Assembly (NCBI RefSeq): GCF_001956985.1 | Contig: NZ_CP019082.1 | Span: 4,216,001-4,280,000, forward strand | Direction of reading: 5' to 3' | DNA: 64,000 bases | Origin: Paludisphaera borealis | GTDB taxonomy: Bacteria > Planctomycetota > Planctomycetia > Isosphaerales > Isosphaeraceae | Shown: one piece after another, positions 55,163 to 58,768 of the stretch | Numbering within the stretch: position 1 is the stretch's first letter | Layout of the letters: each line of letters opens with the position of its first letter | The notes under the pieces: model-generated | What the model was told of the DNA's origin: nothing | Databases searched by the model: none | The model's input: the letters and a program-made list of their open reading frames with translations, nothing else | Made by a program: the position numbers and the translations under genes

Positions 55163-55171
55163 CCGATCGCC

Positions 55172-55214
55172 GAGGCTTGCACCACGGGGTCGGATGAGCC
55201 GAACCCGTGCCACT
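55172..55214. repeat. CACGGGTTCG-family repeat at the left edge of the GC-poor island
   Basis: GCCGAGGCTTGCACCACGGG followed by GTCGGATGAGCCGAACCCGT and GCC. It matches the second half of the element at 57085-57150, which also has CCGAGGCTTGCA and CACGGGG, and the inner part of 1596-1680. It lies directly before the GC-poor genes. Confidence 0.7.
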
Positions 55215-55404
55215 CGCCGTCGGGCCAAGTGGACCGACGAGATCCACTGTGCCATCTGATTTCTGGACTAGTTTTCTTTTTCAAAGCCGCTATTCTAAGC
55301 GGTTCGTTTGGTCCGCATGATTCAGGTGATATGCTTGAATGAGTTGCCAATGATCTCGAAATAAATCGCATAACAAATTACTGACAGGTTCTGAAGGGGG
55401 CGTA

Positions 55405-56394
55405 ATGGAGATTCGTGAGGAGATCCAGCGGAATAGGATCGCAGACGAGGTGGCGGCGCTCACTGCCGTCGTCCGGCCAATCCTTGAAGGAACTCTGTAT
55501 GCCTTGAGAAAGGAAGTGGTGGAAGAAGCAGGTGGTTATAGCGAAGTGAAACTGATGATGCTGCCTCGTCTCTACCGCCAAGGTGATGGAGATTGTGGCA
55601 TCTGCTTTGAATGGGCTGTTCATGCTGGAATTACAAATAACGACAATCAGATTTTGGAACGAATAGATGACTCATTAAAGCTATGTAAGGTTCCTGGGTC
55701 AAAAAGGGCGTCCATTTTGTTTGGGGCCGAGAAGACTGGTGCGGTGCAGTTAATCGATACAGCAGATCAAAAGCTCACAGATGACTCAAGATTGCTTGTA
55801 GGAACGCGGGGGCAGCCAATCAAATTAAAACAACATATTAATTCGGTCGCCGCTGCGTTTCGGCGACCGAATGCCAGATTAGCACTTCCACACAGCATCA
55901 GTGGATTGTGGAAGGCCGACTTATTCATGGGATGCACAGATTCTGATAGGTGGGTCGGTACGACTGTGAAAATCAACGAAAAAGATCTTGAGGCCGCGAA
56001 AGGCCTTCGTGTGGGTATAGTTCCGTCTAGGCAGGGAGCAAGCGATGCAGTTCGGAAGGATGATAGGCGAAATCTAGTAATTTGTCCTCTCCCGCACGAC
56101 GCTTCGTTTATGGAGATATTTTATCGGGGCTGGGGGATTGTTCAGCAGTTTATCTCTGCGGATGCTTTTTTACCCAAAGAGGTTGCATTGCCGTCGCCGG
56201 CAGACCGTCAGGTCGCAAAATACTTAGTCGACCGAAGAAAATTCTCTGTCGTCGATGTCATTGAAGCCCTTGGTCCGATCAGCCAGCCGGAACTGTTGGA
56301 GCCTCGACAATTGAGTGCGGAGGTGATTTTGAAACGCGCTGTAAAATCCAAGATTGGTGCGATTGTTGTGCCAGTCGGGGCCACCAATTCATAG
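55405..56394 (+). CDS. unknown protein of the GC-poor island
   Basis: 329 residues from the ATG at 55405, with AAGGGGG upstream. No named family is assigned. The central part is the most distinctive: a SISGLWKADLFMGCTDSDRW then VGTTVKINEKDLEAAK stretch has the order Asp, spacer, x-x-Lys of restriction-like nucleases (with T where D/E is usual), and ICPLPHDASFMEIFYRGWGI follows. An N-terminal helical part (ADEVAALTAVVRPILEGTLY) precedes an ILFGAEKTGAVQLIDTA segment. Two 60-base lines I counted have 33% and 43% G+C, against 70% in a reference line of a core gene. The gene looks acquired. Its partner downstream has a HEPN-type motif, which would suit a defence role; that is inference. Confidence 0.6.
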   Translation: MEIREEIQRNRIADEVAALTAVVRPILEGTLYALRKEVVEEAGGYSEVKLMMLPRLYRQGDGDCGICFEWAVHAGITNNDNQILERIDDSLKLCKVPGSKRASILFGAEKTGAVQLIDTADQKLTDDSRLLVGTRGQPIKLKQHINSVAAAFRRPNARLALPHSISGLWKADLFMGCTDSDRWVGTTVKINEKDLEAAKGLRVGIVPSRQGASDAVRKDDRRNLVICPLPHDASFMEIFYRGWGIVQQFISADAFLPKEVALPSPADRQVAKYLVDRRKFSVVDVIEALGPISQPELLEPRQLSAEVILKRAVKSKIGAIVVPVGATNS

Positions 56395-56495
56395 AGTCCA
56401 CTAGGTGCCACGAGGCCACTCGAATCGGTGGCACCCGCCTTGGCCCATCACCTCGACGAAATGCTGCGATTACTTCGCCGAGCTGGAGACTTCTT

Positions 56496-57077
56496 GTGGG
56501 GAAAGAGAAAAAGGTCTCAATACGCAAGACCAGGACAGTGATCACGTATGCGGAACTGTGGCATGCATCTTGGTCGCTACTCAAGAACGGGAAGGATCGT
56601 GAGGAGGGATCGCATTATCAATTCATGGGCAGCCTTGTATTTTCAGCCTTCACGTTCGAGGCCTACTTGAATGACATCGGCCCCAAATCCTTCTCAGAGC
56701 AGAATTGGAATGCGTTGGAGCGATTGAGCCCGAAGAAAAAGTTGGAAGTGATCGCCGAGCAGTTGGGATGCCCCGTCGACTATGGACGGCGGCCCTGGAG
56801 TATCATGAAGAAGCTCTTCGAGTTCAGAAACGATATCGCACACGGGAAGTCGGATCCGATAACGGAAACGCAGGTCGTCTCACTTGATGACCACGAAAAG
56901 CATCTATGGGAATTCGCTAAGCCCGAGTGGGAGAAGTTTGTCACAGGAGGGAACGCCGAGCGAGCGAGGGAGGACGTTGAACAGATGGTCAAAGCCTTAC
57001 ACGAGAAGCGAGGCGTGAAAGGCGAGACACCCTTCATAGGAGGGTTCCAAGATTCGGACATCTCGCTCTTGGACTGA
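56496..57077 (+). CDS. HEPN-like domain protein of the GC-poor island
   Basis: 193 residues from a GTG at 56496, with GGAGA just before it. The helical body (VFSAFTFEAYLNDIGPKSFS, then LSPKKKLEVIAEQLG) ends in LFEFRNDIAHGKSD, with R-x4-H in RNDIAH, the typical HEPN ribonuclease motif. HEPN proteins act as RNases in toxin-antitoxin, abortive-infection and CRISPR systems, or as non-catalytic partners. It lies 101 bp after the unknown island gene and shares its AT-rich codon style. A repeat copy follows its stop. No cognate MNT nucleotidyltransferase is adjacent. Confidence 0.7.
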   Translation: MGKEKKVSIRKTRTVITYAELWHASWSLLKNGKDREEGSHYQFMGSLVFSAFTFEAYLNDIGPKSFSEQNWNALERLSPKKKLEVIAEQLGCPVDYGRRPWSIMKKLFEFRNDIAHGKSDPITETQVVSLDDHEKHLWEFAKPEWEKFVTGGNAERAREDVEQMVKALHEKRGVKGETPFIGGFQDSDISLLD

Positions 57078-57084
57078 CACCGGG

Positions 57085-57150
57085 GGCCACGGGTTCGCTC
57101 GACCCGTGGACGCGGACCGAGGCTTGCAGCACGGGGGCTGACGAGTCGAA
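57085..57150. repeat. CACGGGTTCG-family repeat at the right edge of the GC-poor island
   Basis: GGGGGCCACGGGTTCGCTCG, then ACCCGTGGACGCGGACCGAG and GCTTGCAGCACGGGGGCTGA. It corresponds to both halves of the 1596-1680 element. The left-edge copy at 55172 has only the second half. Confidence 0.7.
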
Positions 57151-57208
57151 CCCGTTTCATCCATCAGCCAGTCGTAATGGATCAGTCTTATGGCCCGCTT
57201 CAGCCGCC

Positions 57209-58768
57209 TCACGCCCGGATGACGCCGGCTTCTTCCATCTGGAGCCAGCTCGCTTCGAGGGAGCCGTCGAGGTCGATGCCGCGGCAGGCGGATTCGATGA
57301 CGGTGACTTCGAAGCCGAGGCGGCGGGCGTCGAGGGCCGAGTAGGCGACGCAGAAGTCGGTGGCCAGGCCGGTGAGGAACAGGCGGTTGAGCCCGCGCTC
57401 GCGGAGGTAGCCGGCCAGGCCCGTCGGTGTCGTCCGGTCGTTCTCGAAGAAGGCCGAGTACGAGTCGATGTCGCGGTGATACCCCTTGCGGATGATCATC
57501 TCGCAGTGCTCGACCTTGAGCTTCGGGTGGAACTCGGCGCCCTCCTCGTTCTGGACGCAGTGGTCGGGCCAGAGGATCTGCGGGCCGTACGAAAGCTCGA
57601 CGCTCGTGAACGGCTTCGCGCCGGGGTGCGACGAGGCGAACGACAGGTGGTCCTCGGGGTGCCAGTCCTGGGTCAAGATCACATGCGCGAACCGCCGCGA
57701 GAGCTTGTTGATGATCGTCGGCAGCTCGTCGCCGCCGGGGACCGCCAGCGCGCCGCCGGGGCAGAAGTCGTTCTGCACGTCGACCACCAGGAGCACCCGG
57801 TTCTCGCTCGGCGAGGCCGAGGGGATCGTGCGCCCGGCCGTCTTCGCGGCGGGGATGATCACCGAGCCCGAGAACTTCGAGCCCGACCGCATCGACGCGC
57901 CCGCCGCCGGCTCGCTCGACCGCTGCGCGGCGCGGAGGTCTTCGATCAGCTCGGCGTAGGTCGCGTACCGGTCGTCGGGCGACTTGGCCATCATCCGCGA
58001 TACGATCCGCTCGACCGCCAGAGGGACGTGCGCCGGCAGCGGAGGGGGATCGTCGCGCTCGATCTTCCGCATCAGGCCGAAGACGGAATCCGCCTTGAAC
58101 GGCACGGTCCCCGCCAGCATGTGGTAGAGGGTCGCGCCCAGCGAGTAGATGTCGGCCCGGTGGTCGACTTGAGCAGCGTCGATGAACTGCTCGGGGGGCA
58201 TGTAGCTCGGGGTCCCGAGGGCCGCGCCTCCTTCGGTCCGACCGGAAGAATAGTCGACAGTCTCGCCGGCCGCGACGAGGGTTTTCGCCAGCCCGAGGTC
58301 GGCGAGCTTCACCTGGCCGCTCGACGTCAGAAGGATGTTCGCCGGCTTGACGTCGCGGTGGATCACGCCGACCTGGCTGAGCGCCTCGCCGAGCGCCCGG
58401 GCGACCTCCTCGGCGATCTGCAACGAGCGGTCGACGCCGACCGCCTGGCGCTCGTGGATGTGGTCTTCCAGGCTCTGGCCGTCGATGAACTCCATGACGA
58501 TGAACAGGTGGCCGTCCTTCTCGCCGCAGTCGAAGACGCGGACGATCCCCGGGTGGTTGAGCCGGGCGGCCAGCCTCGCCTCGCGGAGGAATCGCTCGGC
58601 CCCGTGCGCCTGGGCCGAGTGGCTCGGGTTGAGGAACTTGACCGCCACCGGAATGTCGAGGTCGTTGTGGAAGCCCTTGTAGACGACTCCCATGCCCCCT
58701 TCGCCGATCCGTGAAATCAGCCGGCAGCGGCCGACGCCTTCGAGGCGCAGATAGGGGTCGTCGGACAT
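57209..58768 (-). CDS. Ser/Thr protein kinase fused to a nicotinamidase (isochorismatase-like) domain
   Basis: 519 residues. The N-terminal kinase (about 14-280) has Gly loop GEGGMG at 22-27, Lys44, HRDVKPAN at 137-144, DLG at 157-159 in place of DFG, and TPSYMPPEQ at 186-194. A Ser/Ala-rich linker (about 283-322) leads to an isochorismatase-fold domain. The latter has LVVDVQNDF with catalytic Asp330, TQDWHPEDH with metal ligands Asp368, His370, His374, WPDHCVQ with His403, IRKGYHRDIDSYSAFF with Lys428, and LATDFCVAYSA with Cys473. All residues of nicotinamidase PncA are present. It should hydrolyse nicotinamide, feeding NAD salvage. The kinase is probably active; its target may be its own enzymatic half. 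Confidence 0.93.
   Translation of the reverse strand: MSDDPYLRLEGVGRCRLISRIGEGGMGVVYKGFHNDLDIPVAVKFLNPSHSAQAHGAERFLREARLAARLNHPGIVRVFDCGEKDGHLFIVMEFIDGQSLEDHIHERQAVGVDRSLQIAEEVARALGEALSQVGVIHRDVKPANILLTSSGQVKLADLGLAKTLVAAGETVDYSSGRTEGGAALGTPSYMPPEQFIDAAQVDHRADIYSLGATLYHMLAGTVPFKADSVFGLMRKIERDDPPPLPAHVPLAVERIVSRMMAKSPDDRYATYAELIEDLRAAQRSSEPAAGASMRSGSKFSGSVIIPAAKTAGRTIPSASPSENRVLLVVDVQNDFCPGGALAVPGGDELPTIINKLSRRFAHVILTQDWHPEDHLSFASSHPGAKPFTSVELSYGPQILWPDHCVQNEEGAEFHPKLKVEHCEMIIRKGYHRDIDSYSAFFENDRTTPTGLAGYLRERGLNRLFLTGLATDFCVAYSALDARRLGFEVTVIESACRGIDLDGSLEASWLQMEEAGVIRA

Follow-up and report, generated by a model that had tools for sequence, protein, structure and literature searches.

Shedu is a single-gene system, and the restriction enzymes Cfr10I and NgoMIV are without the acidic residue that is canonical for ExK. 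The Shedu protein SduA has been described as a PD-(D/E)XK anti-phage nuclease (PMC12904381), and BstA as a prophage-carried defence protein associated with self-immunity (PMC8585504). Against this background we analysed a stretch of 64,000 nucleotides (nt) of Paludisphaera borealis (contig NZ_CP019082.1, positions 4,216,001 to 4,280,000; hereafter the window), which is part of a genome of 7.65 Mb in 3 contigs, and within it an island of two genes poor in guanine and cytosine (G+C). Gene A (55405..56394, + strand, ATG start) encodes a protein of 329 amino acids that belongs to the PHROG 30306 family and is a putative PD-(D/E)XK-like solitary nuclease, and gene B (56496..57077, + strand, GTG start) encodes a HEPN-like protein of 193 amino acids that is probably an independent acquisition. 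Both open reading frames (ORFs) were found where an earlier reading of the bare sequence, hereafter the original prediction, had placed them; it had taken the island for one acquired unit, perhaps a toxin-antitoxin or defence pair. With modest confidence we favour a different account, in which A is a solitary mobile PD-(D/E)XK-like nuclease acting against phage or plasmid DNA and B is a HEPN RNase that arrived separately.

PHROG 30306, which A matches over nearly its full length, is a cluster without assigned function, and the copy studied here is chromosomal. As proposed here, A would resemble Shedu in being one protein with a restriction-like nuclease core and no regular methyltransferase partner; it differs in its variant catalytic motif and, presuming that PADLOC and Pfam include a model of Shedu, in matching nothing in either collection at E <= 1. 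Re-alignment of the predicted structure with VIA pairs A with Cfr10I and NgoMIV at Z-scores of 3.7 and 3.6 (8% identity in both cases), yet unlike these enzymes A has no fixed methyltransferase partner and no known site. BstA is prophage defence cargo, and a BstA-like gene lies near one relative of A (locus L026), but gene A itself matches no BstA model. The HEPN families of Pfam share the RxxxxH motif with gene B, all of whose scores lie below the gathering cut-offs.

Conserved residues and predicted fold of gene A

The product of gene A matches phrog_30306 (PHROGs v4, unknown function) with an E-value of 1.5e-101, its residues 1-304 of 329 aligning with profile positions 18-335 of 364, and has no counterpart in Pfam, PADLOC or NCBIfam at E <= 1. 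The original prediction had assigned it to no recognised family, which holds for these three collections but not for PHROGs. Nothing was found in the published literature under the accessions of the family, and no title on it occurred among the matches listed; the words 'nuclease' and 'methylase' appear 0 times in the main text of a paper mentioning AUS531phi, a phage that carries a relative of A.

In an alignment of 31 rows, E109 (codon 55729..55731, + strand), W169, D172 (55918..55920, + strand), K189, N191 and F235 are invariant throughout, and E69 (55609..55611, + strand), situated in predicted helix 63-77, occurs in each of the 30 rows extending that far, the remaining row having a gap in a truncated sequence. 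K189 and N191 are part of the stretch T187-V-K189-I-N191 (55963..55977, + strand), whose first position, two before the lysine, is T in 20 and S in 11 of the 31 rows; some accepted PD-(D/E)XK members likewise have no acidic residue there. The order of an aspartate, a spacer and x-x-lysine, pointed out earlier in gene A by itself, is present as D172 and K189, which are invariant across the family; they would be the catalytic pair, with D172 as a putative metal ligand. In one close pair of relatives (L006 and L007) the family is under purifying selection, with a nonsynonymous divergence (dN) of 0.015 and a synonymous divergence (dS) of 0.142; the remaining pairs for which dN/dS was computed have saturated or near-saturated dS.

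An AlphaFold model based on a 23-row alignment reached a predicted local distance difference test score (pLDDT) of 79 and a predicted template modelling score (pTM) of 0.79. Its confidence is low in the tail that starts at residue 297 and contains the nearly invariant P323. Its elements follow one another as helix 63-77, strands 101-105, 173-177, 182-188, 201-207 and 224-229, and helix 235-251, an order which fits the PD-(D/E)XK core fold. When 407 PDB chains ranked by Foldseek were re-aligned with VIA, 23 chains, in 22 rows, were retained at Z >= 2. Proteins with PD-(D/E)XK folds account for 13 of the first 14 rows, namely Tk-TIP26, two McrC proteins, Cfr10I, NgoMIV, DdmD, VC1899, EcoT38I (twice), HindIII, influenza polymerase (twice) and the R2 endonuclease; the 8 lowest rows include no protein known to have this fold. 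The exception among the first 14 is a V-ATPase subunit. Gene A likely has a PD-(D/E)XK-like fold, and the guess of a restriction-like nuclease is backed by residue conservation and, weakly, by the fold comparison. The protein would then begin with a helical region, continue with a PD-(D/E)XK-type core, whose likely metal-dependent active site is made up of E69, D172 and T/S-x-K189-x-N191, and end with a short helical part followed by the low-confidence tail. Solved relatives were also sought by sequence, and the matches for both A and B, at E 0.12 or weaker, were not trusted.

A separate feature within gene A is an inverted repeat (55841-55872) whose perfect 12-bp arms enclose a loop of 8 nt; none of 200 codon-order shuffles equalled it in length. 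It is found at that place in none of 25 relatives tested; L034 has a different inverted repeat of 10 bp.

Distribution, mobility and neighbours of gene A

The relatives of gene A, at roughly 24-63% identity, come from contigs of phages, from plasmids and from the genomes of two further bacteria. They include four phage records (AUS531phi at 60%, three others at 28-29%), four plasmid records from Streptomyces and Micromonospora (53-58%), a contig of a Myxococcales metagenome-assembled genome (59%) and 26 IMG/VR loci, plus 2 recovered by a wider profile, some of them duplicates or fragments. It was the profile search that found the viral contigs, the single-sequence search with A having confirmed none. 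Within the phylum a single-sequence search finds only the source genome among 294, and the profile finds two of 392 genomes, the second being G386; five congeners searched lack the gene, and it is present in 1 of 59 relatives in total. The window copy is not firmly placed in the tree of the family, its pairing with that of G386 having a support of 84/0.

Mobility is indicated by composition and by comparison of flanks. In 29 of 30 loci (the exception being L019) the relatives of A are lower in G+C than their surroundings, with a median difference of -9.5 points. The viral contigs L023 and L030 share 7.8 kb at 90.8% identity until about 125-200 nt before A, whereas the A members at the same place are only 23% identical; this is one clear case of a cassette swap. 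We tallied 131 neighbouring ORFs from 26 loci, picked by a rough script: five match Phage_integrase, and others, among the matches listed, are portal, terminase and methylase genes. In the window and 28 loci, the ORFs up to 900 nt from A include no small partner or antitoxin that recurs. Matches between the neighbours of different loci are restricted to TerL in L011 and L013, the whole flank of L023 and L030, one downstream ORF pair (E 2e-6 to 3.5e-6) shared by L022 and L032, and a small number of weaker ones, with E-values from 0.0004 upwards. A motif-pattern search for methyltransferase partners was abandoned as too strict, being blank even at loci with an annotated methylase, and was replaced by the family tallies. 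In its phage and plasmid carriers gene A appears to be solitary cargo, no recurring partner having been found in the loci examined.

Its positions in these genomes are diverse. It lies about 120 nt after a GpA-type TerL in L013, on the other side of TerL in L011, and between genes read as portal and terminase in L027 and L028; in L026 the BstA-like gene (E 5e-18), whose protein contains a KilA-N domain, stands two genes upstream. AUS531phi carries A together with one small ORF, flanked by a C5 methylase on one side and by an SMC-like gene on the other. The stretch around them has matches in 47 phage records, nine of which were read at the corresponding place. There we found an N4/N6 methylase in phi297 and P52, a SNF2 helicase in D14I, DndC in phiC725A, a PAPS reductase with hypothetical ORFs in OQ658365, three hypothetical ORFs in Epa33, and a single small ORF in BR153a, D14H and PP9W. 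The flanks vary as well: D14I, Epa33 and phiC725A have a LexA-like or DNA-binding gene as their far flank, phi297 has a hypothetical gene as its near flank, and the alignments of D14H and PP9W start only at the methylase edge. These segments of related Pseudomonas phages (L003:6418-8276 and L104-L112), with differing genes at corresponding places, could represent a cargo hotspot.

Proposed role of gene A and its alternatives

In the account we favour, gene A would be horizontally moving phage and plasmid cargo that has settled in a chromosome, and would most likely protect its carrier by cutting the DNA of rival phages or plasmids in the manner of Shedu, itself a one-gene nuclease. As a methyltransferase is not regularly found alongside A, self and non-self would have to be told apart in another way, and the cue may be a state of the DNA, its modification or a trigger provided by infection. 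The nuclease activity of A, its role against mobile elements, its target and its trigger are what we infer from the evidence presented above. For PHROG 30306 as a whole we put forward, more tentatively and at somewhat less than an even chance, that it is an unrecognised single-gene defence nuclease of PD-(D/E)XK-like type with a variant D...(T/S)xKxN active site, which occurs in phages, plasmids and chromosomes across several phyla, is exchanged as a cassette and distinguishes self from non-self without a methyltransferase.

Several observations weigh against the favoured account. Gene A matches no PADLOC model, and T or S takes the place of the acid of the (D/E)xK half-motif in all 31 rows. 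Foldseek searches of PDB and BFVD with the model were negative at E <= 0.001, and because VIA Z-scores are at most 4.9 throughout, and a Z below 5 may mean a mere common arrangement, the comparison supports a PD-(D/E)XK fold but does not prove it. Defence-model matches of the neighbours (best 25 of 109 families) are often methyltransferases, which may be ordinary phage genes. Finally, at least six distinct loci place A near terminase or portal genes, some of them identified by sequence reading, a location that a homing endonuclease might favour too.

The last point leads to the alternative that fares best, though we regard it as unlikely: A would be a homing endonuclease of the free-standing, selfish kind, which cleaves alleles without the gene and is propagated by their repair, with no benefit to the carrier. 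A lone gene of foreign G+C between phage genes is what such an element would look like, and proximity to terminase or portal is seen in L011 and L013 by Pfam matches and in L014, L017, L020 and L027/L028 by sequence reading, with an ORF read as HNH-type just upstream of A in L014. However, the positions of A vary, since it also occurs beside ORFs read as integrases (L018 and L021), to one side or the other of TerL, between methylase and SMC-like genes, beside plasmid parA and in chromosomes, and the place it occupies in AUS531phi holds unrelated cargo in the nine related records read.

Almost as probable, though likewise unlikely, is that A has ceased to be catalytic and serves phages and plasmids as a DNA-binding regulator or in anti-defence or replication, as the T or S at the acid position and the location of a relative beside parA/parB in pVMKU could be taken to mean. 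Yet the retention of E69, D172 and K189 at identities of roughly 24-63% would be unusual for a dead enzyme.

We consider it a little less probable still that A is a type II restriction enzyme, cutting at a specific sequence and left as an orphan, whose methyltransferase was lost or is borrowed. Restriction enzymes do appear among the VIA rows, a C5 methylase lies two genes from A in AUS531phi, and in H66 the next gene is a short ORF annotated as C5-methylase-domain-like, with a full C5 methylase about 2.7 kb away. Yet seven of the nine records compared with AUS531phi have a cytosine methylase, in some records a dissimilar one, annotated beside the corresponding place, and all of them lack A. 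Among the 131 neighbouring ORFs the C5 methylase family of Pfam is matched once and D12 twice (best 25 of 66 families), so that no constant cognate methyltransferase emerges, and the ORFs of the window include none beside A. A cutter without such protection would presumably kill its host.

Gene B, the island and its edge repeats

The low G+C of both genes was confirmed, each being the poorest stretch of its length in the window. Gene A has 49.5% and gene B 52.4% G+C against 66.3% for the whole window; the figures of 33% and 43% in the original prediction are values of single lines. In a scan of stretches of each gene's length outside the island, in steps of 10, gene A lies at -6.6 standard deviations, the poorest 990-nt stretch elsewhere having 57.1% G+C, and gene B at -4.4 standard deviations, the nearest 582-nt stretch having 52.6%, so that B is the poorest only narrowly. 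The G+C at third codon positions (GC3) is 0.485 in A and 0.675 in B, as against 0.81-0.93 in six flanking genes computed. The overall G+C fraction of 60-nt lines between the edge repeats ranges from 0.37 to 0.60. Both genes look acquired, as had been suspected; A is missing from the five congeners and has relatives in phages and plasmids.

No tRNA was found in the window, and a clean empty site in the congeners, which we looked for, had to be given up. The gene downstream of the island (57209-58768, - strand), read from its sequence as a fusion of a protein kinase with an isochorismatase-like domain, is kept in all five congeners at 76-79% identity, while the gene upstream was found in none of them. 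Two congeners (L050 and L051) share sequence with the window on both sides, but because this sequence breaks off at about 45.2 kb and resumes at 57.2 kb, no exact insertion junction can be read. The segment between these points is variable, no gene shared with L050 or L051 having been found there, and contains an MFS-type transporter and a protein read from its sequence as large and subtilisin-like in addition to the island.

The original prediction was correct in that related repeat copies occur at both edges of the island. The left-edge copy (55170..55215) belongs to a family of hairpins resembling repetitive extragenic palindromic (REP) elements, and the right-edge copy (57082..57162) is a degenerate double-hairpin form of the same family. 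The arm of this dispersed hairpin, CACGGGTTCG, occurs at 55200-55209 (- strand) and 57088-57097 (+ strand), with a window total of six copies against 0.39 expected, and with three mismatches allowed the arm pattern has seven window matches against 2.15 expected, a number reached in one of 100 shuffles. A degenerate arm, with 2 mismatches in 16, also lies between A and B (56421..56436). A second string, CCGAGGCTTGCA, occurs at 55170 and 57117 and nowhere else in the window even at one mismatch, although two places were also reached in 8 of 100 shuffles. It sits within a 39-nt direct repeat whose left-edge copy is identical at 34 of 39 positions to the right-edge copy and at 36 of 39 to a copy at C1:87510; shuffles of the latter locus (n=50) had at best 24 matching positions. 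In the genome of the source organism a strict palindrome search gave 20 matches per strand, mostly the same sites read both ways, against 0 for the reversed control pattern, and a 75-base query from the right edge had matches with E < 0.01 at six further sites, one of them the left edge. The exact 18-base string CCGAGGCTTGCANCACGG, found genome-wide only at the two edges, weighs against seeing the repeats as members of a dispersed family. On balance the repeats mark intergenic places of the genome and not the ends of one element; with a dispersed hairpin family and an arm also between A and B, neither their interpretation as boundaries of one acquired unit nor a composite mobile unit with its own terminal repeats is supported. 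REP-like hairpins were also seen at 1601-1673 of the window and at other places of the genome, several of them paired 46-49 nt apart as double hairpins.

The RNDIAH motif noticed earlier in gene B spans residues R111 to H116 (56826..56843, + strand) and conforms to the HEPN-type RxxxxH. In an alignment of seven rows (B with six relatives, five at 20-27% and L102 at 35% identity) E55, R111 and H116 are invariant. Three HEPN families of Pfam (PF18735, PF18737 and PF18739) match the same region of B weakly, the best score being 20.3 bits against a gathering cut-off of 28.4, and PF18735 is matched by three of the seven rows at E <= 0.1. A single-sequence model of B is all helical, with a pLDDT of 46, and too poor for a structure search. 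Relatives occur in five plasmid records and, by profile, in four of 392 genomes of the phylum including the source; the phage collection yielded none, and neither did a single-sequence search of the viral contigs, for a profile scan of which the alignment is too divergent. B is probably an independently acquired HEPN RNase that would act through R111 and H116, and not an antitoxin or partner of A. Directly beside its relative in G385, a DUF2971 protein (L102:6992-7795, - strand) matches the defence candidate PDC-S31.

The conserved pairing of A and B expected in other genomes did not materialize in the loci and genomes searched, an outcome that the original prediction had itself named as refuting it: the profile of B finds nothing in 36 loci of A, and that of A nothing in six loci of B (E <= 1), while each profile recovers its own family in 6/6 and 36/36 loci, mostly by construction and with duplicates and short contigs included. 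That A and B form one acquired toxin-antitoxin or defence pair, as their adjacency on the same strand 101 nt apart and their shared low G+C might suggest, is thus largely refuted and the least probable of the alternatives, the two being together only in the source genome among 392 of the phylum (A in two, B in four) and differing in GC3, with a repeat arm between them; we reject it at present on adjacency, profiles and composition. The sole hint of a HEPN neighbour elsewhere comes from G386 (L101, one of the 36 loci), where the second gene after A encodes a protein that the B profile does not match. In that genome the copy of A is followed by a TauD-like gene and then by this 315-residue protein (L101:9895-10839, + strand), which has no significant family match and includes a stretch RRNEELHAG, read from its sequence as possibly HEPN-like.

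Two genes that arrived separately, set among dispersed hairpins, can give the appearance of a single G+C-poor island framed by repeats. If our account of gene A is true, a family that the collections searched list only as of 'unknown function' would be a compact, widely exchanged single-gene defence nuclease, and it would raise the question of how a lone phage-borne nuclease spares the DNA of its own phage.

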